Source: a virus
IMG/VR virus record: IMGVR_UViG_3300045738_002450
Span: 1 to 37,691 of that record
Reading direction: 5' to 3' (one strand)
Length of the DNA: 37,691 nt
The notes under the pieces: generated by a model
Databases searched by the model: none
What the model was told of the DNA's origin: nothing
The model's input: the letters and a program-made list of their open reading frames with translations, nothing else
Program-made: the position numbers and the translations under genes
Shown here: positions 1 to 16,219 of the stretch, in pieces
Layout of the letters: every line of letters begins with the position of its first letter
How positions within the stretch are numbered: position 1 is the stretch's first letter

Positions 1-921
1 ATGACGAAAGCCCGTTTTGAAATAGCCTTTGAGGGCGATCCATTTGACGATGGCGAGATCGATGTCCGTGATCTTGCTCCTACTCTCCTCGCATTCGGCA
101 ATGTCGTGCAGGCGGCGAATAAAGCACTCAACGGCGATCGCGCTGATGCTCGTCTCAAAGTCGCAGCAACCGATCAGGGGTCCTTTGTGGCCGCACTTAC
201 GATGGATGTCGGCTGGTTAACTGACATGTTGGACGCGGTGAATGCTCACCCTCAGCGCGTTGTCGCTGCTGACAAATTAATGGACCTGCTGATCAAGGCC
301 GGGGGCATTGTGAGCGGCGGAGCGGTCGGCCTCTTTACCGCAATCAAAGTTTTGAGAGGCAAACGGCCGGAAAAGGTTGAGCCACTGGGTGATGGAACCA
401 CCCAAATAACGATCAACCACACAACGTTTGTTGTTGATGATCGCACAGTTGCTCTGTTGCAGGACCTACCCACGCGAGAAGCTGTTGAAGACCTCGGAGC
501 GAAGGCGGCGCGTGTCGATGGCCTCGATAGTCTACGCATTGGTGTAGACAGTGGAGATTTCGACGCGGTTCGTCTTTCTCGCAGTGATCTTCAGGCTCTC
601 AAGGTGCCGCCAGAGCCGGATGAACCGGATACTGAGGTCACCCACCGTGATGCATGGTTAAAGATTGTTTCGGTTCATTTCCGTGACGGGTACAAATGGC
701 GTTTTTCGGATGGTGGCGAGCGACCGTTTACTGCGGAGATGGAAGATACCGACTTTCAGAATAAAGTGCAGGAAGGTCTTGTGACTCTGAATGCCAACGA
801 CGCAATTCGCTGCCGGCTGCGCGAAGAGCAGTCGCTATCAGCGTCCAGCCTGCTCAAGGTTGTTTATGTCGAAGAAGTGTTGGAGTATCGCCCTGGGGCA
901 CGTCAGATGAGTTTGCTCTGA
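1..921 (+). CDS. Unknown 306-aa protein, possible cargo or defence-associated
   Basis: The frame is open from the first base of the window to a TGA at 919-921. The N-terminal ~90 residues look like a compact alpha/beta domain beginning FEGDPFDDGEIDVRDLAP. Residues ~95-120 form a Gly/Ala/Val-rich hydrophobic stretch, and the C-terminal ~90 residues look like a beta-rich domain with YKWRFSDGGERPF. I see no catalytic motif. Proteins of this size and style occur as accessory genes near prophages and defence islands, but that is a memory of context and not a demonstrated function. It lies on the far side of the integrase gene, so it may be flanking host DNA. The start is the first base shown and an upstream start cannot be excluded. 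Confidence 0.6.
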   Translation: MTKARFEIAFEGDPFDDGEIDVRDLAPTLLAFGNVVQAANKALNGDRADARLKVAATDQGSFVAALTMDVGWLTDMLDAVNAHPQRVVAADKLMDLLIKAGGIVSGGAVGLFTAIKVLRGKRPEKVEPLGDGTTQITINHTTFVVDDRTVALLQDLPTREAVEDLGAKAARVDGLDSLRIGVDSGDFDAVRLSRSDLQALKVPPEPDEPDTEVTHRDAWLKIVSVHFRDGYKWRFSDGGERPFTAEMEDTDFQNKVQEGLVTLNANDAIRCRLREEQSLSASSLLKVVYVEEVLEYRPGARQMSLL

Positions 922-1057
922 CGCGTTAGCTTATTACTGACACACCAGTTCACGCTCATGTGCCGCTCCTTGCTCCACGTCGTTTATCATATTGCGTCCA
1001 CATGAACGCCGCTACTTTTTGCAAAATAACACGACCATGCAGAGGAAAAAATTCGGA

Positions 1058-1435
1058 ATGAGCGACGAGAATTTATATACTAAAATTCTTCAGTGGGGAT
1101 ACGACCGTGTTGATACCGGAGTAACCTACGCCAATTTCGAAAAGTTCATTATGGAGCTTGGAGTTGAAGTGGGAAGTTCGAGGCAGAATGCGCTCTTTCT
1201 TGAACTTTTTGATCACATGGAAAAAAATCTAGTCCCTCACGCAAAACAGCAAGCCATAAGGAACAATGAGTTTTTTCATTTGAACATTGATGCCACTTTT
1301 CGCCATTTGGAACGAATAGAGCTTACGGAGGCGCGGGAGGGATCAAGACGGGCATTACTGTGGGCGAGAGTTTCTCTGGGCGCTGCGATCTTCGTGGGCG
1401 CAGCCCAAATCTTTCTTGGGTTCTTTGGTTGTTAA
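1058..1435 (+). CDS. Small protein with C-terminal membrane anchor, unknown function
   Basis: This 125-aa protein starts at an ATG with AGAGGA at 1041-1046, 11 nt upstream; in-frame starts further upstream have no better ribosome site. The first ~95 residues are charged and helical. The last ~25 residues contain a hydrophobic segment (SLGAAIFVGAAQIFLGFF), so the soluble part probably faces the cytoplasm with a C-terminal anchor. It sits 107 nt upstream of a trypsin-like protease gene on the same strand. The DNA is more AT-rich than the phage genes, consistent with separate acquisition. No family recognised. Confidence 0.55.
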   Translation: MSDENLYTKILQWGYDRVDTGVTYANFEKFIMELGVEVGSSRQNALFLELFDHMEKNLVPHAKQQAIRNNEFFHLNIDATFRHLERIELTEAREGSRRALLWARVSLGAAIFVGAAQIFLGFFGC

Positions 1436-1542
1436 GCCGGAAAAGAAAGTTCATGTGATATTGGTTCTGAAAATAGCTAAAAATTGGTAAGAATCTACGT
1501 ACCAAGGCCGTTAGAGTTCAGGACGGGAAGAAAGTAAGGAAA

Positions 1543-2325
1543 ATGACTAAATCTGTGCATGAGGGATCTGCCGCTGCGTTTAAGATTTTCATGTATTGTG
1601 ATGAGGATGAATTGTCACAAGGTACTGGATTTCTTTATGGGTACGCTGAAAGAGTTTATTTGGTAACCAACAGGCATAACATTTCAGGGCGGAACCCAGT
1701 TACAGGCAGTTTTCTAGATGGCGATAAGCTCCAGCCAAATTGGCTGCGCGCAGGCATCAGGGTTCCCGGGCCTGAAGGGATTGAAACAGCAGAAGTTGCA
1801 TTCGGATGGGGGTACAGTGGAACTGAAGTTTGGCTCGAGCACCCCACGGGGCCTAGTGTAGACGTAGTAGCGTGCGATGTTTCCGAGTTTTTCAAGGAAC
1901 GCTCTGGTTCACCAGTTAAAATAAATGAAATTAGTTCTGACCTTTATCGCGTCGAAGTGGCAGATGAGGTTTTTCTTCTAGGCTATCCGTTAGGTCTGCA
2001 TCTTGACGATTTCCCTATTTGGAAACGTGGAACTATCGCGTCGGAACCAGCCCTTGATTACGAGGGTAAGCCGATGATGCTAGTCGATACTGCGAGCAAC
2101 AAGGGAATGTCTGGATCTCCGGTGATCTTGCGGAAAAGTAATGGTATGCTGGCTAATGGAGATCAGGTGTTTGGCGGAGATCTCGGCTTTCAATTTGTTG
2201 GGGTTTATTCGGGCCGTGTTGCTCCAAAGGGTGACTTGGATGCTCAATTGGGTATGGTGTGGCGGGCTGACGTGGTTGAGGAAATTATAGTGGCTAACAC
2301 CCAATATGAGCCTCCGAAACGCTAG
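1543..2325 (+). CDS. Trypsin-like serine protease
   Basis: This 260-aa protein has the layout of a chymotrypsin-fold (S1-like) protease. Residues 28-30 give GTGF. The catalytic His is H45 in VTNRHN, the likely Asp is D107 in SVDVVA, and the nucleophile is S190 in the GMSGSP motif. No signal peptide is visible, so it is probably cytoplasmic. AAGGAAA just upstream of the ATG is a good ribosome site. Cytoplasmic trypsin-like domains of this kind occur as effectors or partners in bacterial defence loci (family knowledge). Here it neighbours a small membrane protein and a DUF6602-type protein, which would fit such a locus but does not prove it. The gene is AT-rich relative to the prophage. Confidence 0.75.
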   Translation: MTKSVHEGSAAAFKIFMYCDEDELSQGTGFLYGYAERVYLVTNRHNISGRNPVTGSFLDGDKLQPNWLRAGIRVPGPEGIETAEVAFGWGYSGTEVWLEHPTGPSVDVVACDVSEFFKERSGSPVKINEISSDLYRVEVADEVFLLGYPLGLHLDDFPIWKRGTIASEPALDYEGKPMMLVDTASNKGMSGSPVILRKSNGMLANGDQVFGGDLGFQFVGVYSGRVAPKGDLDAQLGMVWRADVVEEIIVANTQYEPPKR

Positions 2326-2447
2326 CCTAAGCTATGTTAAATGACATACTAGCTTGTTGACTTTGTGGGTCGGCGTTCACTACTCGAAGCTTGTGTCCTC
2401 TTCCTTCTGCCGTATCGCGGGCTCACCAATTCTGCTACAGATGCGAA

Positions 2448-3467
2448 ATGGAACCTACAGACCAAAAAAAGCACGACCTGGCTGAATATATCGAAGAAAT
2501 TCAGTCGGCTCTTTCGCAGGACTACAAGCAGATCCAAAAGCGGGTCAAAGAGGATCCGGGCACCGCTGGGGACCAGGCAGAAGAAACTTGGGCTGAGGTT
2601 CTCCGCAGATGGTTGCCTGAGCACTTTCACGTTGTCACGAAAGGACGGATTATTGGTTCTTCAGGCACGGCGTCAAGTCAGATTGACGTTCTTGTCCTTT
2701 GGCCAAACTACCCACCATTACTGTTGAAAAAAAAGCTCTACATCGCAAGCGGTGTTGCGGCCGCGTTTGAGGTAAAGCTCACGCTCAAACCGCATCACAT
2801 TAAAAAGGCATTTGAGACTGCTATTCAGCTGAGTGAAATAACTGAAGATGAGCACTTCAAGCGGAAAAATAGAAAGCGGCGTAAGGGCGAGAACTTTGCC
2901 TACGAGGAATATCACAGAATTTTCGAGTACGGCATCTTGGCGCACTCTTACGAGACTTCCGATAGTTCGAAGGCCATGGACGCTATCACAGGAAGAATAA
3001 GATCACTGGACGCCGACTTGGTGAAGCATCCGAAGCAAATGATTGATTTGGTTTGCGTGCACGGCCTTGGCTCGTGGGTGAGTGAGCGTAAAGCGATAGC
3101 CGAGTTTCTCATTGAAACACCGGGTGGGCCAAATCTGTTCGAATTGCATCACCAGCAGCATCCCGTAACAACCTACGTCGCGCATTCCAAAGATAAATGG
3201 GGTAAGAACAGCAGTATCTATCACAACTTCTCACCACTGGGAGCCTTTCTCGCTCAACTTTATAGAAAGTTGGCGCGGACGGACGCATCTTTGCTGCCGC
3301 TTGCAAACTTCTATTCAACTACGCTCTCTACCGGGCGCGGTGGCGGCCCGGGTTCCAGGCTCTGGACGGAGCTTACTACGCCAGATGAAATCTGGGAAAT
3401 GTCGGCTGGCATACGGGCTGGAAAAGGCACCATAGCCGATGAGGACTACAGCTTCTTAGGTTTTTAG
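2448..3467 (+). CDS. DUF6602-type protein
   Basis: This is a 339-aa protein. An acidic N-terminal helical stretch is followed at about residues 40-110 by a segment with GDQAEETWAEVLRRWLP, SSQIDVLVLWP and AAFEVKLTL. The D...ExK spacing (IDVLVLWP ... AFEVKLTL) resembles the core of PD-(D/E)XK nucleases, and the overall pattern matches what I know as DUF6602. Nuclease activity is inference. The start at 2448 is chosen because the protein becomes family-like there; an in-frame TTG at 2391 has no ribosome site. It converges with the integrase gene, leaving only 40 bp between them. It may be host flank or prophage cargo. Confidence 0.6.
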   Translation: MEPTDQKKHDLAEYIEEIQSALSQDYKQIQKRVKEDPGTAGDQAEETWAEVLRRWLPEHFHVVTKGRIIGSSGTASSQIDVLVLWPNYPPLLLKKKLYIASGVAAAFEVKLTLKPHHIKKAFETAIQLSEITEDEHFKRKNRKRRKGENFAYEEYHRIFEYGILAHSYETSDSSKAMDAITGRIRSLDADLVKHPKQMIDLVCVHGLGSWVSERKAIAEFLIETPGGPNLFELHHQQHPVTTYVAHSKDKWGKNSSIYHNFSPLGAFLAQLYRKLARTDASLLPLANFYSTTLSTGRGGGPGSRLWTELTTPDEIWEMSAGIRAGKGTIADEDYSFLGF

Positions 3468-3507: not shown

Positions 3508-4596
3508 CTACTCATCGCCGACGACCTTCAGTTTGCTCCGGCGCTCCTCAGGTAACTCCGGCCGGAAGTCCCAGCCGTGCTTCAGCAGGCGCTCGGACAG
3601 ATCATCGGGTGCTAGCTTGCGGTACCGGTTCGCCATGTCAGCTTTTGACCACCCCCCTTGGTCCATGAGGCTGCCGAAATCGCGCGTCTGAGCGTAGAAC
3701 CACGTCGCCCAGGTGTGGCGCAGCACATGCGGAGTCACATCGTCGCCCAGGCCTGCCAAATCGCGCGCCTTGTTGAAGGCAGTCTGCATCTGGCCACCGC
3801 CACTCTCGATCAGCTTAATTTCCTTCCCGTATGGCGTCCGGAACATACGCCCCTTGATCGGAAGGTCGCCCATAAGCTCAACCGATCGTTCTGGGAGCTT
3901 GACCCATCGCGCGGAGCTTCGTGTTTTCCCGGCTCCTACCTCGATCGCCGGGATCCACAGCTGCGAGCTGCCCGGGTTCCAATCATCGACGTTGGCGGCG
4001 AAGCACTCGCCTGTCCTGCAGCCGGAGCCGAGAAGAAATGCGATCTTTGCCAGTGTGTACGGTTCCGGGTTCGAATGCCTGGGCAGCGTGAGCGTTGCGG
4101 CCGCGCTCAAAAGTGCTTCGGCCTCCTCAGGTGTGAGCCAGCGCACCCGCTTGTTATCCGTGGACGGCCGACGTCGATTGCCTTGGGCCCATCTGATTAC
4201 CGCGGTGATTGGCACCCGTACCTGTCGCCTGACCGTGTCAGCTGCGCGCCCGGGATAGATGGCGACACCAGTTTGGACGATATCCGCTTCGTCAATGTCC
4301 TCGATCATGGTGGTTTCTCCAAAGTGGCGGATCAGTTTGGGCAGAAACCGTGCCTCGCCACCCGCGTCGACGTACCCTTTTGCCGCTGACCAGAAAGGTG
4401 TGCCCGCAGCCTGTGCTACTGGATTGAGACGACGGTCCCAGAGTTCGCGGTAGATCTTCTCCGCTTTCGCGGTTGCGATTCTCTTGAGGCTCTTGTCACG
4501 GATGCCAAGGCGTCGGCGAACCCGCTCGCCTTCGATGTAGAAATCGACTTTCCAGCCCCATTTTTCGTCCCAGATCGGGTCGTAGTCTTTACGCAT
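3508..4596 (-). CDS. int: Tyrosine recombinase (phage integrase)
   Basis: This 362-aa protein carries out site-specific recombination between attP and attB. The catalytic set is readable: R194 in GCRTGE, K224 in GAGKT, H290 and R293 in TPHVLRHTW, W316 in GGW, and nucleophile Y325 in MANRYRKL. Residues ~1-60 form an arm-binding-like N-terminus and ~70-140 a core-binding SAM-like domain. The ATG is preceded by a good GAAAGGA ribosome site. It is the last gene of the leftward operon and its 3' end faces the short gap 3468-3507, the usual place for an attachment site. Its first 180 bp overlap the upstream HTH gene in another frame. Confidence 0.93.
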   Translation of the reverse strand: MRKDYDPIWDEKWGWKVDFYIEGERVRRRLGIRDKSLKRIATAKAEKIYRELWDRRLNPVAQAAGTPFWSAAKGYVDAGGEARFLPKLIRHFGETTMIEDIDEADIVQTGVAIYPGRAADTVRRQVRVPITAVIRWAQGNRRRPSTDNKRVRWLTPEEAEALLSAAATLTLPRHSNPEPYTLAKIAFLLGSGCRTGECFAANVDDWNPGSSQLWIPAIEVGAGKTRSSARWVKLPERSVELMGDLPIKGRMFRTPYGKEIKLIESGGGQMQTAFNKARDLAGLGDDVTPHVLRHTWATWFYAQTRDFGSLMDQGGWSKADMANRYRKLAPDDLSERLLKHGWDFRPELPEERRSKLKVVGDE

Positions 4597-4781
4597 GCCA
4601 ATTCCTTTCTGATTTGCGCAATGTGTTCTGGGTAGAAAATCTTTTTCTTCCCGCGCAGCTCATAGTGCGGATGATTTTTGACAATAGCTACGAGATGTCG
4701 CCGACAGACCCCGAGCGCGGCTGCGGCACCGTTCATATCGAGGGGTTCGATCACCCATTGGGGGAGGGTTTGGGCATTCAT
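4416..4781 (-). CDS. Small HTH DNA-binding protein, excisionase-like candidate
   Basis: This is a 121-aa protein. Residues ~14-55 (MNGAAAALGVCRRHLVAIVKN, followed by KKKIFYPEHIAQIRKEL) read as a winged helix-turn-helix of the AlpA/excisionase type: helix-turn-helix plus a basic hairpin and a terminal helix. The last ~60 residues are Ser/Thr/Arg-rich low complexity and are read out of frame from the integrase start. Only the N-terminal half is therefore likely to be functional. It starts with a 4-bp ATGA overlap with the gene upstream. Position directly before int suggests control of excision, by inference. A transcription factor role is the alternative. Confidence 0.6.
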   Translation of the reverse strand: MNAQTLPQWVIEPLDMNGAAAALGVCRRHLVAIVKNHPHYELRGKKKIFYPEHIAQIRKELACVKTTTRSGTKNGAGKSISTSKASGFADALASVTRASRESQPRKRRRSTANSGTVVSIQ

Positions 4782-5050
4782 GTGCTGATCACCTTGTACT
4801 GTCCTGGCATAAGCCGGAGCGGTTTCGCGTGGGGGGCGGTCACTTCGATGCAGCGGGTACCAAACTCTCGCGCTGTCACCGTGCCGATCTCGGCATCTTG
4901 GAGCGTTGTCCTGGCAAAGCGGACCTGGTCGCCGATCTCGGGGAAATGGAAAGGTGCCCTCGAGCAGTAGGGGGAGCTCGAGGGCAAAGTTGCCGTCGCG
5001 GGGACAAGTGTTGCGACGGTGGCAGGAACCTGCGGGCGCTGGGCGTTCAT
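4778..5050 (-). CDS. Small beta-rich phage protein, unknown function
   Basis: This 90-aa protein has a Pro/Ala/Thr-rich N-terminal ~30 residues followed by a likely small beta-barrel with GDQVRFARTTLQDAEIG and CIEVTAPHA. It starts at 5050, giving an ATGA overlap with the TSCPD gene, and it ends in an ATGA overlap with the HTH gene, so it is translationally coupled on both sides. A longer in-frame extension to 5200 is Arg/His-rich and lies inside the TSCPD gene, so I reject it. No family recognised. Confidence 0.6.
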   Translation of the reverse strand: MNAQRPQVPATVATLVPATATLPSSSPYCSRAPFHFPEIGDQVRFARTTLQDAEIGTVTAREFGTRCIEVTAPHAKPLRLMPGQYKVIST

Positions 5051-5391
5051 GCTTCGATCACCCCGCGCAGTATGTCGTTGGCAGTCACTCCGATGACGGA
5101 GGAGGGCATTTCGGTGCCGAGCACTGGAGTGGTCGACAGGCTTTTGGCAATCGCGGCCGGATCCACGCCGTGCTGAAGGAGGAGACTGATGAGGACGCAT
5201 GCGTCCTGGATCGCGTGTTGCAGCTGCGAGCCGTTGCGTTGACCGTCAGCGTAGAACACTTCAACCGGCCGTGCCGTCGTTTCATCCAGCCCGATCGTGA
5301 CATGGAAGCTGTGCTGTGCAGTCTCAGTCTTCCATACCACTTCGCGCGTGATCGACGGCCGTCGGTTGGGTGGGCGCTGACGATCGCTCAT
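5047..5391 (-). CDS. Stand-alone TSCPD-domain protein
   Basis: This 114-aa protein matches the TSCPD domain found at the C-terminus of B12-dependent (class II) and some other ribonucleotide reductases. The visible signature is RRPSITREVVW, then FHVTIGL with PVEVFY, then DACVLISLLLQHGV and an LxxG-type helix. The reductase catalytic barrel is absent here, so this is an orphan accessory domain. Its job is unknown; a regulatory or binding role is inference. The start at 5391 overlaps the upstream stop by ATGA. The gene is coupled into the integrase operon, an unexpected place for a nucleotide-metabolism domain. Confidence 0.7.
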   Translation of the reverse strand: MSDRQRPPNRRPSITREVVWKTETAQHSFHVTIGLDETTARPVEVFYADGQRNGSQLQHAIQDACVLISLLLQHGVDPAAIAKSLSTTPVLGTEMPSSVIGVTANDILRGVIEA

Positions 5392-5663
5392 TGCATGGCA
5401 CCTTCGATGTCGAGGTGCATGAGGCCGAGTTCGCTTATGCTGGCGTTCCTCTGATCCGGCAGGCCGGTGATCACCAGCAGCTGCATCTTGCTCAGTCTCT
5501 CGATCGTGCTTTGGGCATGGCGTTTTTTGAAATCGGGGTTCATCGCAGTCCAGCACTGATCCAGCGGGTTCTGGGAGGGCATCTCAATCAGCCCACCTTC
5601 GTTGATCGATCGGTGTGCGTCTTTGAGCGCGGCCAGCTGTTCGTCGGTCAGACGGGCACTCAT
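5388..5663 (-). CDS. Unknown 91-aa protein of the integrase operon
   Basis: This is a short, helical, charged protein beginning MSARLTDEQLAALKDAHR. It has no cysteines forming a metal site, no membrane segment and no motif I recognise. It is joined by ATGA overlaps to the genes on both sides (5660-5663 and 5388-5391), which strongly supports that it is translated. It should be expressed with the integrase operon under the operator at 5898-5913. Confidence 0.6.
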   Translation of the reverse strand: MSARLTDEQLAALKDAHRSINEGGLIEMPSQNPLDQCWTAMNPDFKKRHAQSTIERLSKMQLLVITGLPDQRNASISELGLMHLDIEGAMQ

Positions 5664-5866
5664 TGCTGCGTTTCCGCAGTAAGGAGCGCCAGGCGTCTCT
5701 GGTTCACGCTGTGACCGCGCGCGGCCATGAGGGTCATCCAGGCTAGCCGGCGCAGTATGGGGCGGTCGTGGTATTGTTCAGGGTTCGCGGCAACTGCCCG
5801 CGCGTTGCTGATCATCTGCCCAGATGGCTTCGCCTGGGGGATGGTTGGGATCGCTTGAGTGTGCAT
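5660..5866 (-). CDS. Unknown small protein, first gene of the integrase operon
   Basis: This is a 68-aa protein. The start at 5866 is fixed by a strong GGAGG site seven bases upstream. The alternative start at 5905 would lie upstream of the predicted transcription start. The sequence contains EQYHDRPILRRLAWMTLMAARGHSVNQRRLALL, in short stretches a basic amphipathic helical region, which could contact nucleic acid. It overlaps the next gene by ATGA. No family recognised. Confidence 0.6.
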   Translation of the reverse strand: MHTQAIPTIPQAKPSGQMISNARAVAANPEQYHDRPILRRLAWMTLMAARGHSVNQRRLALLTAETQQ

Positions 5867-5889
5867 AATCGCCTCCGTTGCTATCGGAG

Positions 5890-5918
5890 ACATTAAAGGG
5901 GACATTTGTCCCCGTCAA
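5890..5918 (-). promoter_or_regulatory. Leftward early promoter for the integrase operon
   Basis: Read on the minus strand, TTGACG (5913-5918) and TAATGT (5890-5895) are separated by exactly 17 bp. The palindromic operator fills the spacer, so a bound repressor would block polymerase. Transcription would start around 5883, leaving a leader that carries the GGAGG of the first gene. Confidence 0.65.
5898..5913. promoter_or_regulatory. Repressor operator O1
   Basis: GGGGACATTTGTCCCC is a 16-bp palindrome, perfect apart from the central two bases. It follows the pattern GGGAC-N4-GTCCC also seen at 5928-5941 and, with one mismatch, at 7357-7370. It lies between the -35 and -10 of the leftward promoter. 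The likely ligand is the HTH repressor at 6954-7295 or the Cro-like protein. Confidence 0.7.
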
Positions 5919-6046: not shown

Positions 6047-6772
6047 TCAGTTGAGGCTGCGAACTTCGCTAAATTTAAATACAAACTCAGGCCGCGAGAT
6101 TTTGCTGTTCAGTAGAAAGTTCTGGGTGGAAATGCACCCTTCTGGATCGGTGAAAAATTCGCCCGAAAACGTGACGCTATCACCCGGGGAAAGCGCGCTT
6201 ACGTCCGCGAACAGGCCGGTACCTGGTTCGATCAACGTTCCTGTGCCTATGTCCGAGATTGCGTTGTTCCAAGTTGAAACCCATGCATCTTTTTCGAGGG
6301 TGACCACCAGAACTCCTTTTCCGTCGCCGTTCGCTTTGATGCTGTAGATTGTGCCGTGCCAGTCGTTAACGCGTTTCCCGCTTGGCAGTATTTCACAAAT
6401 GGTCCGTTCCCGCGATGCGAGTGCTGCGCCTTTTTGCATGTCGTTCGCGGCTGCGTCTGCGGCTTCCCGAGCCGCGGCGACGGCAGTAAGGAATTTTTGC
6501 TGTGATGTGGGGGCCGGATCCGGCGTGACGGTTTGAGGGGTGCTCGCCGCCTGGGTATCAGTTGCTTCATTCTGAGCGGCTGCAGGTGCAGCGGGTTCGT
6601 CTGGGGAAGGTATAATGAGGCCCAATATAAAAAGGAACGCAAGGATCGCGCCGACCGTCTTCAGTGTCTTCATTATAAAGCCGCTTTTCAGCTTTTGTCC
6701 GCAGTGCGGACAGGTCTTGGCGGTCGATGAGACCTCTTTTCCACAAGTTTTGCATGATTTGAGTGAGGCCAT
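6047..6772 (-). CDS. Zinc-ribbon, single-TM protein of the immunity region
   Basis: This is a 241-aa protein. A C4 zinc ribbon lies at the N-terminus (C7, C10, C21, C24: CKTC then CPHC). A transmembrane segment follows at ~36-54 (LKTVGAILAFLFILGLII). Next comes an Ala/Pro/Thr-rich linker at ~57-95, then a beta-rich ~140-residue domain with TICEILPSGKRVNDWHGTIY. The ribbon is probably cytoplasmic and the large domain periplasmic. It is encoded between repressor and integrase operon, a position where temperate phages often keep genes expressed in the lysogen. A superinfection-exclusion role is a reasonable guess but is not shown by sequence. A general host-type zinc-ribbon protein is the alternative. 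Confidence 0.7.
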   Translation of the reverse strand: MASLKSCKTCGKEVSSTAKTCPHCGQKLKSGFIMKTLKTVGAILAFLFILGLIIPSPDEPAAPAAAQNEATDTQAASTPQTVTPDPAPTSQQKFLTAVAAAREAADAAANDMQKGAALASRERTICEILPSGKRVNDWHGTIYSIKANGDGKGVLVVTLEKDAWVSTWNNAISDIGTGTLIEPGTGLFADVSALSPGDSVTFSGEFFTDPEGCISTQNFLLNSKISRPEFVFKFSEVRSLN

Positions 6773-6953: not shown

Positions 6954-7295
6954 TTATTCTTGATCTGAAGGAGGTTGCTCAGATTCGCTCTTCTCGGCGG
7001 CAAGTTGAGCTTTTGCAGCGGTTATTAGAAAGCTCCGAGCACGATCTGATAGCGACTCTAGAAGTCCCAATATCTCATCTTGGTCTGACGCTTTTCGACC
7101 CGAAATAAGTTGCTCGGTGGTGAGGCCAAAGTACTTAGCCACCTTCATCGCGTCTTCGACATTGGTTGTTCTGGATTCGATTTGTTTCAGCTTCTTGAGC
7201 TGTTCGTAAGAGACACCTGATCCTTCGGCGACCTGCCGTAGCGAGGTGCCAGTTTCTTCCAGCTTTTCCAGCAGCGCTTCGCGAAATGTTCTCAT
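6954..7295 (-). CDS. Short HTH repressor (CI-like, no protease domain)
   Basis: This is a 113-aa protein. An XRE-type helix-turn-helix occupies residues ~5-65, with SLRQVAEGSGVSYEQLKKLKQ as the recognition region. It is followed by a short helical tail rich in Ala/Glu/Ser. The S24 autoprotease domain of lambda-type repressors is missing, so RecA-stimulated self-cleavage is not expected. Induction would need an antirepressor or another signal. It is divergent from the Cro-like gene, with operators in the shared region. There is no strong ribosome site before the ATG. It is the best candidate for the lysogeny repressor. Confidence 0.75.
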   Translation of the reverse strand: MRTFREALLEKLEETGTSLRQVAEGSGVSYEQLKKLKQIESRTTNVEDAMKVAKYFGLTTEQLISGRKASDQDEILGLLESLSDRARSFLITAAKAQLAAEKSESEQPPSDQE

Positions 7296-8551: not shown

Positions 8552-9396
8552 GCCACAAAGCGACAAACTGGTTTTCAGAGGTCCCGGCTGACGCATTAAC
8601 GTCAGGCGAGTTTCGCGTCCTGTTTTTTCTTGCTGACTGTCACAACCCCAGCAAGGGGTGCTTCCCTGAGCAGAAGTTTCTTCGCGTTAAGACAGGCCTG
8701 TCGAATGGGGGGCTGAATAAATGTCTAAACGGCCTCGAAACGAAGAAACTGATCCGCCGAAAACAGCGGTTTAACCCACAAACCAAAGAACGGCTGTCCA
8801 CCCTGTACATCCTGGGGTGTGACGAGGATCTGGATACCGAGCCAACTCCACTAAGTGGAGATGGGTCCAACTCCACTTTTGATGCCGATCCATCTCCACT
8901 TTTAGGCCAAACCCAACTCCACCCCAGTGGAGACAAACCTGTAAGGGAACCAGTAAAGGAACCTTGCGCGTCGGAAACCGACCCGCAAACAGATGCTTTT
9001 TCCAAAGATTTGACAGAGCAGCTGCTGGATCTCCATCCACGCCCTGGTGATCCCATCGAGACCGAGGCGGCGCTGAAAAAGGCGATTGCGGCCGGCACCT
9101 CGCCGGAGGTCATCATCTCGGGGGCCCGTGCCTACGCCGAAGAGCAAAAGGGAAACTCGCCGCGCTATGTGGCCTACTCGCAAAATTGGATAACCCGCAA
9201 AGGCTGGGTGCCCTTTGCTCCGAAGTCAGCGGCCGAGAGCTCTGCGAACGCCGAGGCCGTCAACAACCGCTGGGCCAACTGGATCAAAGATAAGGCCGTG
9301 AGCGCGGTCCACTGTTCGCCCCGTGTTGCCCACCAGCTGTGCCTTGATGGGAAGGTCACCGTCGACGAGTGCCGTGCCGCGGGGATCAACCTATGA
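8548..9396 (+). CDS. Phage replication initiation protein (winged HTH)
   Basis: This is a 282-aa protein. Residues ~1-95 form a winged helix-turn-helix of the phage replication organiser type, with SGEFRVLFFLADCHN and LKVKTGLS-like FLRVKTGLSNGGLNKCL, then a wing containing RKQRFNPQTKERLSTLY. A low-complexity linker (~97-150) has repeated Ser/Thr-Pro-Leu segments. The C-terminal ~130 residues are helical. The family initiates phage replication by binding the origin and recruiting host helicase; the helicase must come from the host, as none is encoded here. An origin could lie in the repeated linker DNA (8843-8945), where TCCACTT-type words recur, but this is tentative. Confidence 0.65.
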   Translation: MSHKATNWFSEVPADALTSGEFRVLFFLADCHNPSKGCFPEQKFLRVKTGLSNGGLNKCLNGLETKKLIRRKQRFNPQTKERLSTLYILGCDEDLDTEPTPLSGDGSNSTFDADPSPLLGQTQLHPSGDKPVREPVKEPCASETDPQTDAFSKDLTEQLLDLHPRPGDPIETEAALKKAIAAGTSPEVIISGARAYAEEQKGNSPRYVAYSQNWITRKGWVPFAPKSAAESSANAEAVNNRWANWIKDKAVSAVHCSPRVAHQLCLDGKVTVDECRAAGINL

Positions 9397-9677
9397 GCGC
9401 CGTCCACAACGACCCCGCTTCGAATGGCACCACCTTCGGTCGCGTCACCGTGACCGTCGATCTGGCAGCCGGCGATTGCATGATCCACGGCACCCGACCT
9501 GGTCCGATCGCGGACGTGCCGGTGCGCAAACGCTTTCACTCGATCGATGAAATTCAGGGGGCCTATCAGGTCCAGCTTGGATTGTCCGCGAGCGATCCGG
9601 CCGCGGGTGATGTGGCTCGGGCTCTCAAGTTCGCGGCGCAGCAGCTGCAAAACGCGAAAGGCCGCAAAAATGGATAA
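9393..9677 (+). CDS. Unknown 94-aa early protein
   Basis: It starts with an ATGA overlap at 9393 and ends overlapping the next gene by 8 bp. The first ~60 residues are beta-rich (GRVTVTVDLAAGDCMIHG), and the rest is one or two helices (AAGDVARALKFAAQQLQNA). It sits between the replication and ParB-like genes, so a DNA-transaction role is possible. No motif recognised. Confidence 0.6.
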   Translation: MSAVHNDPASNGTTFGRVTVTVDLAAGDCMIHGTRPGPIADVPVRKRFHSIDEIQGAYQVQLGLSASDPAAGDVARALKFAAQQLQNAKGRKNG

Positions 9678-10530
9678 CGCCGAACAATTCCGTCCCGTTG
9701 ATCTGTCTGTGTTCCACGCTTCGGCACATATGGCACCGAATGATGGGGACGATGCCCCGGAGCTGCTATGGGTTCCGATCTCGGCCCTGGTCTTTGACGA
9801 TCGCTACCAGCGGAACATCGAGCAGCGCGGCCGGTCCAACATTCTCAAGATTGCGAAGAGCTTCGATTGGGGGCGGTTTACTCCGCTTTTGGTCGCTCCG
9901 GTAAACGGCGGCAAGCTCGCAGTGATCGATGGCCAGCACCGCGCGCATGCTGCTGCGCTTCGGGGGCATCGACGTGTGCCGGCTATGGTCTGCCAGATGT
10001 CCCTGAAGGAGCAGGCTCAGGCGTTCGCCTGGGTGAACGGCAACGTCACGGCCGTCTCTGGTTTTCACATCTATCGAGCAGCTCTCGCCTCCGAGGAGCC
10101 GTGGGCGGTCAACTCACAGGCCGCGGTCGCAGCTGCTGGGTGCCGGCTCATGCATGGGAATTCGTCAGCTTCGATGAAGAAACCCCGCGATCTGTACTGC
10201 ATCTCCACAATCAGGAAGCTGGTCGACAACCGCCGCGCAGAGACGGTGACCCGCGCGCTCGACGCTCTGTCGAAGTCCGCCCAGGGTGACGACGTCCATA
10301 TGTACTCTGCTGACGTGCTGGGGCCGTGGCTGTCGGTTGTGGATCAGTTCCACAAGGTTCCCACTTCGGTCCTGGTGGAGTTTATCAACGCAAACTCTTT
10401 CGACAGCATTTTGCGCGGTGTCTCGAAGTTGCGCGAAACGCCCGAACACTTCCGCAGCTCAGGCCGCGCGCTATTCGAGCGCTCCCTGGTCGCACTGTTC
10501 AAGAAATACATGCGGGAGCGGGTGGCTTGA
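9670..10530 (+). CDS. ParB/sulfiredoxin-fold phage protein
   Basis: This is a 286-aa protein. The N-terminal ParB-like domain spans ~35-120: WVPISALVFDDRYQR, then FDWGRFTPLLVA, then the signature VIDGQHRAHAAALRG, which forms the phosphate-binding GxHR-type loop. The remaining helical half may be a DNA-binding or partner domain. ParB-fold proteins include partition CTPases and nucleases; no ParA is present, so plasmid-like partition is unlikely. A DNA-processing role in replication is inference. The start at 9670 is preferred over 9547 because homology-like sequence begins here and the upstream extension lies within the previous gene. Confidence 0.75.
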   Translation: MDNAEQFRPVDLSVFHASAHMAPNDGDDAPELLWVPISALVFDDRYQRNIEQRGRSNILKIAKSFDWGRFTPLLVAPVNGGKLAVIDGQHRAHAAALRGHRRVPAMVCQMSLKEQAQAFAWVNGNVTAVSGFHIYRAALASEEPWAVNSQAAVAAAGCRLMHGNSSASMKKPRDLYCISTIRKLVDNRRAETVTRALDALSKSAQGDDVHMYSADVLGPWLSVVDQFHKVPTSVLVEFINANSFDSILRGVSKLRETPEHFRSSGRALFERSLVALFKKYMRERVA

Positions 10531-10910
10531 CTGAACGCATGACCGCGGCCGAGTTCGCTGCAATCCAAACCCAGCCCAAAAAGCAGAAGTATGGGGCCGT
10601 GCGCAAAGAGCTTGATGGCATAAGTTTCGATTCCAAGCATGAGGCTCGGTGTTACGCCGGTCTGCGCCAGCTCGAGCGGGTCGGGAAAATTGCCGACCTC
10701 CAGCTGCAGGTGAAGATCCCCTTGTTCGGCCGCGATGGTCCGTTGCGCACCCGCACGGGGAGACACATGAGGCTGACGGTCGATTTTGCCTACACCGATC
10801 TGGAAACAGGGTTGCGCGTCTACAAGGATGCCAAGGGCACTCCAACAAGAGACTATGAGGTTCGCCGCGCTGTCGCGCAGGCCCAGGGCATCGAGGTGGT
10901 CGAAGTATGA
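10527..10910 (+). CDS. DUF1064 phage endonuclease-like protein
   Basis: This is a 127-aa protein matching the DUF1064 family, small phage proteins with a PD-(D/E)XK-like core. The visible elements are FDSKHEARCYAGLRQLE (the usual S-x-x-E-A), VKIPLF, RLTVDFAY and VYKDAKGTPTRDYEV, giving a D...DxK set. Such enzymes probably resolve or trim branched replication DNA, a role known only by analogy. The likely start is TTG at 10527, giving a TTGA overlap with the ParB-like gene and a GGGAG site 8 bp upstream. The ATG at 10539 is too far from that site. Confidence 0.7.
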   Translation: MTERMTAAEFAAIQTQPKKQKYGAVRKELDGISFDSKHEARCYAGLRQLERVGKIADLQLQVKIPLFGRDGPLRTRTGRHMRLTVDFAYTDLETGLRVYKDAKGTPTRDYEVRRAVAQAQGIEVVEV

Positions 10911-11197
10911 CGGATGTACTGACCACAATGGATCGCGTTCGCGTCTATGCCGCGGTTTCGCCCGAGGTCACGATCGACAACAAGACGGCGACGGTTCTCT
11001 GCACACTAGCTGATGTCGGAGTTCGAGCTCATCGTCTTGCCGAGCGGGAGGCGGAGCTGAAGAAAGGCCTCGACACCCTTCGGATCGGCCGTGAGCGCCT
11101 GAAGCACGATACAGAATATTTGGAGGGCGTTCGGCGCACCGCGATGGCCGCATTTGCGATCGGGATTTTGAGCGCTCTATTTTCGGTGTTTGTATGA
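10907..11197 (+). CDS. Small coiled-coil protein with C-terminal membrane anchor
   Basis: This is a 96-aa protein. Residues ~40-76 are a charged coiled-coil-like helix with many Arg/Glu (RLAEREAELKKGLDTLRIG), and residues ~78-96 form a hydrophobic anchor (TAMAAFAIGILSALFSVFV). It has ATGA overlaps at both ends. The function is unknown. The early-operon location suggests interference with a host membrane process or anchoring of a replication partner, as inference only. Confidence 0.55.
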   Translation: MTDVLTTMDRVRVYAAVSPEVTIDNKTATVLCTLADVGVRAHRLAEREAELKKGLDTLRIGRERLKHDTEYLEGVRRTAMAAFAIGILSALFSVFV

Positions 11198-14839: not shown

Positions 14840-16219
14840 TTGTCTGATCTGATTTCTTACACCGACGTCGAGATGTTGCCGCCTGGTGACCTGACGCCGT
14901 ATGACCGAAACTCGCGGACCCACAGCTCTGAGCAGGTCAGCCAGATCGCGGCATCGATCCGCGAGTTCGGGTTCACCAACCCGGTGCTGGTCGGCGAGGA
15001 CGGCACCATCATCGCCGGCCACGGTCGGGTGCTTGCAGCCTTAGAAATAGGGATGTCGCAGGTTCCGTGCCTCAGAATTACCGGCCTGTCAGACGAGCAG
15101 CGGCGCGCCTATATCATCGCCGACAACAAGCTGGCGCTTAACGCCGGGTGGGATGATGAGCTGCTGAAGCTGGAGCTTGGCGAGCTGCGCGATCTGGGAT
15201 TTGACCTCGGGGTTGTGGGCTTTGATCAATCCGAATTAGACGAACTTTTTGTCGATCTCGACGGCCTGGAAGAGGAAGGAAAAACCGAAGACGACGAGGT
15301 GCCGCCGATCGGGGGGGACTTCGTTTCTCGGCGGGGCGATGTTTGGGTTTGCGGTGATCACCGGATCATGTGTGGCGACTCCACGGTCATGTCCGACATC
15401 GAGCGGCTGATCGGTGACGAGCTGGTCGATATGTGCTGGACCGATCCGCCCTACAACGTGAACTACGAGGGCACGGCCGGCAAGATTGAGAACGACAACA
15501 TGGGCGCGGACGCGTTCCTTGCCTTTCTGACCGATGCTTTTGTTTCTGTGTTCTCGGCCGTCAAGCCAGGCGGGGCGCTCTATGTCGCCCATGCTGACAC
15601 CGAGGGGCTGCCGTTTCGCACAGCCTTCAGCTCCGCGGGCTTCAAACTGTCTGGCTGCCTGGTCTGGGTGAAGCCGAGCCTTGTTCTCGGTCGGTCGGAC
15701 TACCAGTGGCGGCATGAGCCGATCCTTTACGGCTGGAAGCCAGGCGCACCGCACCGGTGGTTTGGCGGCCGTAAGCAGACAACGGTCATCGATGCAGAGG
15801 ATCTGCCGTTCGTCGTCAATGAGGACGGGTCGCTGTTGATCGACACGGGATCCGGCCATCTACGCGTCTCAGGTTCTGACCTTCAGGTCGAGGAGCTGGT
15901 GTCGTCGGTGCTGCGCCACGAAAAGCCGAGCCGCAATACCGAGCACCCGACAATGAAGCCGGTCGGGCTGGTGATGCAGTACCTGAAGAACAGCAGCCGG
16001 CGCGGTGATCTGGTCCTGGATCCTTTCGGCGGTTCGGGGAGCACGATGATTGCGGCGCAGAAGATCGGCCGCGTTGCTAGGCTGATGGAGCTGGATCCAC
16101 GGTTCGCGGATGTGATCGTGAAACGCTGGCAGGATTTCACCGGGGGGCAGGCTGTCCTGGAAGGCACGTCCGATCGCTTTGACGATCTGCGCGGCAAACG
16201 TGGGGAGGCTGGCAAGTGA
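14840..16219 (+). CDS. ParB-domain DNA methyltransferase (N4/N6, beta-class order)
   Basis: This is a 459-aa fusion. Residues ~5-95 form a ParB-like domain (NPVLVGEDGTIIAGHGRVLAALEIG). Residues ~165-450 form a SAM-dependent methylase with catalytic DPPY at 202-205 (TDPPYNVNYEG), HPTMKPVGL at 369-377 and the SAM-binding DPFGGSGS at 394-401. DPPY before FGGSG is the beta-class order seen in CcrM-like enzymes. The target site cannot be read. Likely roles are protection from restriction or marking DNA for packaging, since it lies just before the terminase genes. The TTG start at 14840 is supported by AGGAG six bases upstream. Confidence 0.85.
   Translation: MSDLISYTDVEMLPPGDLTPYDRNSRTHSSEQVSQIAASIREFGFTNPVLVGEDGTIIAGHGRVLAALEIGMSQVPCLRITGLSDEQRRAYIIADNKLALNAGWDDELLKLELGELRDLGFDLGVVGFDQSELDELFVDLDGLEEEGKTEDDEVPPIGGDFVSRRGDVWVCGDHRIMCGDSTVMSDIERLIGDELVDMCWTDPPYNVNYEGTAGKIENDNMGADAFLAFLTDAFVSVFSAVKPGGALYVAHADTEGLPFRTAFSSAGFKLSGCLVWVKPSLVLGRSDYQWRHEPILYGWKPGAPHRWFGGRKQTTVIDAEDLPFVVNEDGSLLIDTGSGHLRVSGSDLQVEELVSSVLRHEKPSRNTEHPTMKPVGLVMQYLKNSSRRGDLVLDPFGGSGSTMIAAQKIGRVARLMELDPRFADVIVKRWQDFTGGQAVLEGTSDRFDDLRGKRGEAGK

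Follow-up and report, generated by a model that had tools for sequence, protein, structure and literature searches.

A family of free-standing TSCPD proteins on phages and plasmids as possible modulators of the host class II ribonucleotide reductase

Introduction

Phages are well known to carry whole ribonucleotide reductases. The long C-terminal tails of class II enzymes consist of an IscU-like domain and a zinc finger, perhaps for oligomerisation, as described in an excerpt of PMC9669993. For one class II reductase (NrdJ), an excerpt of PMC5704485 reports that the tail is needed for the formation of tetramers and hexamers, which are induced by dATP and dGTP, and that it transfers electrons via a six-cysteine zinc finger, also between subunits. 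The same excerpt states that the tail also exists as a separate gene, NrdJb, and that a separately expressed tail failed to restore the TCEP-dependent activity of the truncated enzyme. A ribonucleotide reductase is mentioned in RcC phages in an excerpt of PMC8601537.

The window, i.e. the whole stretch of DNA analysed here, is a complete virus record of 37,691 bases. The initial annotation described in it an orphan gene for a TSCPD protein, tightly coupled to an integrase gene and unaccompanied by any reductase, whose product could act on the host reductase or tie integration and excision to dNTP levels. The gene, its homologues and their neighbourhoods were analysed computationally.

Results

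The TSCPD gene and its place in the window

The TSCPD gene was confirmed as real and its identity as correct. PF12637 (TSCPD) covers residues 22–90 of the 114-aa protein with 30.5 bits against a cut-off of 22.8 (E = 4.6e-7), bearing out the first assignment, and was the sole Pfam match at E ≤ 1. NCBIfam at E ≤ 1 gave two matches only, both to vitamin B12-dependent reductases and far under the whole-protein cut-offs, and PHROGs produced only a weak reductase match (E = 0.07). Sequence searches of the PDB returned 13 chance-level matches with the single protein (best E = 0.12) and one match with profile A1 (E = 6.7). The catalytic barrel of class II reductases is absent from the ORF and its model PF02867 found no match anywhere in the 37,691-base record, so the description as a separate small gene without a reductase holds. 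Apart from the ATG at 5391, the ORF list offers a longer start, a GTG at 5556 (169 aa); the ATG fits better because it creates a 4-base overlap with the upstream 91-aa ORF and because the homologues start at about the same place.

Table 1. Genes around the TSCPD gene of the window (positions in bases; L numbers denote homologous loci).
Feature	Position	Strand	Basis or remark
Tyrosine integrase, 362 aa	3508–4596	-	PF00589
121-aa ORF, helix-turn-helix (HTH)/excisionase-like by eye only	4416–4781	-	Overlaps the integrase gene by 181 bases
90-aa ORF, function not assigned	4778–5050	-	Overlaps the TSCPD stop by 4 bases; homologues in L006 and L007
Free-standing TSCPD (IscU-like class II reductase domain) protein, 114 aa	5047–5391	-	PF12637, model, alignment
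91-aa ORF, function not assigned	5388–5663	-	Overlaps the TSCPD start by 4 bases; homologues in L006 and L007
81-aa ORF, function not assigned	5660–5905	-	Homologues in L006, L007 and L010
HTH repressor-like protein	6954–7295	-	PF13443; heads the leftward gene block

The gene lies within a leftward block of small genes, bounded by the HTH repressor-like gene and the integrase gene, in which the ORFs of 81, 91, 114, 90 and 121 aa overlap their successive neighbours by 4 bases (Table 1). The phage is temperate and the TSCPD gene belongs to its lysogeny-side operon. The tight coupling to the integrase described initially holds only with the restriction that the 90- and 121-aa ORFs lie between the two genes. 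The 121-aa ORF, which found no Pfam match at E ≤ 1, shares positions 4416–4596 with the integrase gene, and a similar overlap is present in L006.

Several other regions of the window deserve mention. Its left end (1–3467) is a possible defence island with matches to PADLOC models: PDC-S42 (1–921, E = 3e-106), a PDC-S45-like protein (1543–2325) and a NucC/PD-DExK-like protein (2391–3467). The TSCPD gene itself had no PADLOC match. A zinc-ribbon protein with a likely membrane helix, as judged by eye, is encoded at 6047–6772 on the minus strand, and phmmer found no relative of it among the neighbour ORFs of the other 36 loci. The product of 14840–16219 on the plus strand resembles, by eye, what we take to be a ParB-N and DNA methylase fusion.

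Predicted structure

The AlphaFold model (mean pLDDT 82.8, pTM 0.73) comprises three strands, helices, a hairpin and a last helix, which by the order of elements is not an HTH fold; no DNA-binding (HTH) family of the kind found in recombination directionality factors or excisionases matched the protein in Pfam at E ≤ 1. Foldseek against the PDB gave no match at E ≤ 0.001. The Z values from VIA-align reached 6.6 for the C-terminal part of enzymes of the flavin disulphide-reductase type, presumably their dimerisation domain, and 5.2 for IscU chains; both may reflect just a common arrangement. The resemblance of the predicted fold to IscU is weak; an IscU-like domain has been published for the tails of class II reductases. 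In BFVD, the top four matches all had a probability of 1.00, two of them at E ≤ 0.001: a protein of 122 aa without a name, two short phage proteins (184 and 136 aa) that are called reductase, and a 799-aa Roseobacter phage reductase.

The presence of IscU chains among the structural matches, together with a cysteine (C65) conserved in 91% of 33 aligned free-standing sequences, might point to a metal or Fe-S scaffold protein. Such a function is hardly credible, as Z values this low may reflect no more than a shared arrangement and as the family has only 0–4 cysteines over 37 loci, with exactly one in 25 of the 37, and so lacks a set of Cys ligands. The scarcity of metal-ligand cysteines had already been remarked on in the initial annotation: the window protein has a single one, and the six-cysteine C-terminal zinc finger is absent. 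TIGR03905 is a small TSCPD protein with four cysteines; the NCBIfam matches of the window protein at E ≤ 1 consisted of the two models of B12-dependent reductases.

Relationship to the host NrdJ

Profile A2, built from 15 rows of the free-standing family, was applied to 14 genomes that have a free-standing gene, and in every one of them it matched long NrdJ frames at 42–45 bits (E between 2.5e-11 and 2.1e-10 for each genome); the shorter host reductases (about 770 aa) were not reported by this profile at E ≤ 10 with default filters. Judged by such profile scores, the homology of the free-standing protein to the NrdJ domain is clear. All six host tails examined, three from long NrdJ and three from shorter reductases, have the TSCPD domain followed by a Cys-rich finger, and in the long ones an LPxRR motif stands ahead of the domain. 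The free-standing proteins have kept this motif at their front, while the zinc finger is missing.

In an alignment of 33 free-standing and 15 NrdJ rows (L131, L067, L063 and L013 left out), 15 positions had an identical residue in 15 of 15 NrdJ rows and in 76–100% of the free-standing ones, 13 of them in at least 91%: R4, P8, R10, R11, T15, G34, E44, F46, G54, S69, L72, Q73, G75, G92 and S98. The charged or polar nature of several of these residues hints that a surface has been retained. Fourteen further positions, including D63 and C65, reach 70% in the free-standing family only, although at two of them, L7 and I103, the majority residue is the same in NrdJ. There are 31 positions which NrdJ conserves to at least 95% and at which even the commonest residue of the free-standing family stays below 50%. 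The free-standing gene is under purifying selection, with dN/dS of 0.03–0.46 in nine of 11 pairs, many of the dS values being saturated and the other two pairs having no finite dS.

A recent fragmentation from the host gene was considered and is not favoured by a tree of 65 rows, comprising 35 free-standing sequences (fragments L063 and L013 dropped) and, selected from the host reductases available, 15 long and 15 short ones. The long and the short reductases each formed one fully supported group, while the free-standing rows came together as one group in only 7% of the bootstrap trees and included several very long branches.

Co-occurrence with the host NrdJ was rejected as evidence. A long NrdJ frame (1214–1322 aa) was present in 18 of 18 genomes with a free-standing gene and known frame sizes, and five of the 19 order genomes with such a gene (G030, G063, G079, G173 and G250) had two TSCPD matches each, with frame sizes not given. 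This is uninformative because TSCPD matches occur in 386 of 390 genomes of the host order, mostly two per genome, and in 141 of 200 genomes of the phylum sample. The genome of E. coli, used as a control, had no match to PF12637.

Distribution of the free-standing family

By homology, the window protein is a member of a family of free-standing proteins found on phages, plasmids and prophages, with lengths of 100–144 aa (median 116; 35 loci). Twelve phage records were detected, 11 of Rhodobacter capsulatus phages and one of EBPR podovirus 2, and all 12 copies are annotated as 'ribonucleotide reductase'; a second query yielded 13 phage records, the additional one being a faecal phage. The two queries found eight and nine plasmid records, and virus contigs gave 16 loci with profile A1 and 15, mostly overlapping, with profile A2. 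The free-standing gene was present in at least 19 of 390 genomes of the host order at E ≤ 1e-14 (21 loci), at least four of 385 in the class sample and at least two of 398 in the phylum sample; these are lower bounds, with 11 or 12 candidates scored per genome, and the samples overlap (G001 is in all three). The class-level count leaves out three of seven matches (G567, G662 and G738), which were NrdJ frames of 1141–1235 aa. For G002, PF12637 detected two reductases and missed the copy at a contig end (L013).

All named hosts are alphaproteobacteria: Rhodobacter, Phaeobacter, Ruegeria, Paracoccus, Roseobacter, Yoonia, Rhodoplanes, Roseovarius and Chachezhania. No host is named for EBPR podovirus 2 and the faecal phage. 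A reductase barrel was found in none of 18 TSCPD-carrying records (the window, 11 of the 16 virus contigs, two phages and four plasmids), several of the virus records possibly being fragments.

Genomic neighbourhoods

After six duplicates were dropped, 37 of 43 loci remained for comparison; Pfam was applied to about 24 of their neighbour proteins and PHROGs to 10, several giving no match. A co-directional integrase gene lies downstream in four loci (window, +450 bases; L007, +815; L004, +1,518; L006, +2,855), and L062 has one on the other strand. None was found in the searched flanks of the other 32, some of which are short, by phmmer searches from few seeds with limited sensitivity. The integrases are of two types, one in the window and L006, accompanied by the overlapping 121-aa HTH-like gene, and the other in L004 and L007. 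The set of 81-aa, 91-aa, TSCPD and 90-aa genes is common to the window, L007 and L006, the last of which contains one additional ORF; relative to the window, L006 also has about 2.4 kb of other genes (8620–11016) between the TSCPD block and the HTH-integrase pair. In the copy on a Paracoccus plasmid, an integrase gene stands one gene further on, about 1.2 kb downstream.

A conserved pairing with the integrase was not found at this sensitivity, and the family as a whole gives no support to a function specific to integration.

The remaining neighbours were diverse. A gene for a single-strand binding protein (SSB) lies next to or near the TSCPD gene in five of the 37 loci and in four of eight plasmid records (partly the same loci); all finds of SSB were in one group of loci that resemble plasmids. 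DNA methylase genes are neighbours in L001, L008, L064, L129 and a Rhodoplanes plasmid, while other loci have a helicase (L061), a primase (L010), a RuvC-like protein (L066), a DHH phosphoesterase (L011), GIY-YIG-type nucleases (L119 and L121) or a PIN protein (L120). An AAA-ATPase and a nuclease are neighbours in RcHotPocket, and a Roseobacter litoralis plasmid has a DUF736 neighbour. A conjugation-operon context was seen in Ruegeria THAF33 and, by its SLT gene, in L124. On a Ruegeria plasmid (L147), the TSCPD gene at 3986–4411 overlaps a lytic transglycosylase gene by 4 bases, upstream of type IV secretion genes. What the loci have in common would appear to be an operon for early DNA metabolism or for establishment, and not integration.

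Neighbours such as SSB, methylase, helicase, primase, RuvC-like protein, DHH phosphoesterase and AAA-ATPase/nuclease, together with a 4-base overlap of the TSCPD gene with its upstream ORF in 17 of the 37 loci, make an accessory of replication or recombination a serious rival to an action on the reductase: the IscU-like fold would be reused as a protein or ssDNA adaptor in the element's DNA machinery, with no reductase contact. The partner, however, differs from locus to locus, with SSB confined to the plasmid-like group; moreover, positions conserved in the host reductases are also conserved here and Pfam gave nothing but TSCPD at E ≤ 1. An adaptor is rather unlikely.

A second, NrdJb-like lineage

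Two genomes from another class of the phylum encode an NrdJb-like TSCPD protein of 135–141 aa without the zinc finger. Its gene (L157, 5694–6116; L158, 5723–6127) has a divergent LexA-like gene on one side and, downstream on the other, genes for DUF2924, for a large serine recombinase and for a ParB-HTH-like protein (Pfam on L158 only). The order of TSCPD, DUF2924 and recombinase recurs in L181 and L182, which gave no match to LexA, and is thus present in four of four distinct loci with readable downstream sequence; L159 is apparently the same sequence as L157, and the sequence of L160 stops at the gene. A single inheritance would seem to account for the four loci. In the reverse direction, TSCPD was present at none of six plasmid DUF2924 loci, and a viral scan with DUF2924 found no relative.

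The NrdJb-like lineage is the strongest result against dismissing a link to recombinases. It can be added to the co-directional integrases of the window, L004, L006 and L007 and to that of the Paracoccus plasmid in favour of a factor tying integration or excision to dNTP levels. Such a factor is nevertheless very unlikely in view of the 32 integrase-free flanks, with their limits noted above, the varying type and distance of the integrase where it occurs and the outcome at the plasmid DUF2924 loci; in the window, the 121-aa HTH-like ORF overlapping the integrase gene is, by eye, the better candidate for an excisionase.

Discussion

We infer that the free-standing protein acts on or with the host reductase. 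The preferred reading, to which a probability of about 0.4 is given, is that it docks on the host NrdJ and alters its assembly and activity. It would represent the IscU-like (TSCPD) half of the class II reductase C-terminal tail, which a mobile element produces on its own. Within the host reductase, that half lies between the catalytic barrel and the electron-passing zinc finger, with the whole tail needed for tetramers and hexamers. Without the finger, docking and a change of assembly or turnover would still be possible, while carrying electrons would not, so that the free domain would keep only the assembly part. A modulator of the host NrdJ would be the most economical reading. Binding to NrdJ might take place in the early replication phase of the element or while it becomes established, and would shift the oligomeric state or activity of the enzyme such that the dNTP supply suits the element. 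Action in trans is not automatic, because in the excerpt of PMC5704485 the separate tail did not restore the truncated enzyme.

The same docking could also serve a decoy that shuts down the host NrdJ, for example to halt the DNA synthesis of the host or in competition with other elements: according to the electron transfer described in the excerpt of PMC5704485, a finger-less domain could cap oligomers that need the tail for transfer between subunits. A decoy is improbable, as none of the 18 records tested carries its own reductase and a dNTP shutdown would hurt the elements too, and as the gene also occurs on plasmids and in a lysogeny-side operon. For a modulator of NrdJ, raising the dNTP supply seems likelier than shutting it down.

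In a broader and more doubtful form, the proposal would be that alphaproteobacterial mobile elements encode a trans-acting subunit which re-tunes the host class II reductase via its oligomerisation domain only, and that this arose in at least two domain lineages. If true, it would constitute an auxiliary-gene strategy in which enzyme assembly is changed without bringing the enzyme, and a family consisting of the accessory domain only would be a cheap way to alter the host dNTP supply. In the literature searches made here, no description of a free-standing TSCPD protein as a reductase accessory domain was found.

Among the known systems, the closest is the C-terminal tail of NrdJ itself (CRD, the IscU-like/TSCPD domain plus zinc finger), with which the window protein has the TSCPD domain, the LPxRR motif and the 15 conserved positions in common; it differs in being a separate small gene product with neither catalytic barrel nor zinc finger. 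In the split class II reductases (NrdJa and NrdJb), the TSCPD domain of NrdJb is likewise encoded by its own gene, but the five NrdJb-like frames examined are longer (214–228 aa), contain 7–8 cysteines, are accompanied in four cases by a frame of 713–750 aa and reach at most 7.6 bits with profile A2, two of the five giving nothing at E ≤ 1. The whole class II reductases of roseophages were matched by the TSCPD query, so the domain is present in them; they are, however, annotated as full enzymes and were found with the NrdJb-like domain type. Proteins of Rhodobacter phages (RcOceanus, RcKemmy, RcHotPocket and others) and of EBPR podovirus 2, 37–49% identical to the query, belong to the same free-standing family, although their operons differ in containing an AAA-ATPase and a nuclease, or a methylase, with no integrase annotated in two stretches. 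The family is already in the databases, and its annotated name, 'ribonucleotide reductase', is misleading because no barrel is present in the two records tested. The recurring annotation is corrected accordingly: the product of this phage gene is not a ribonucleotide reductase.
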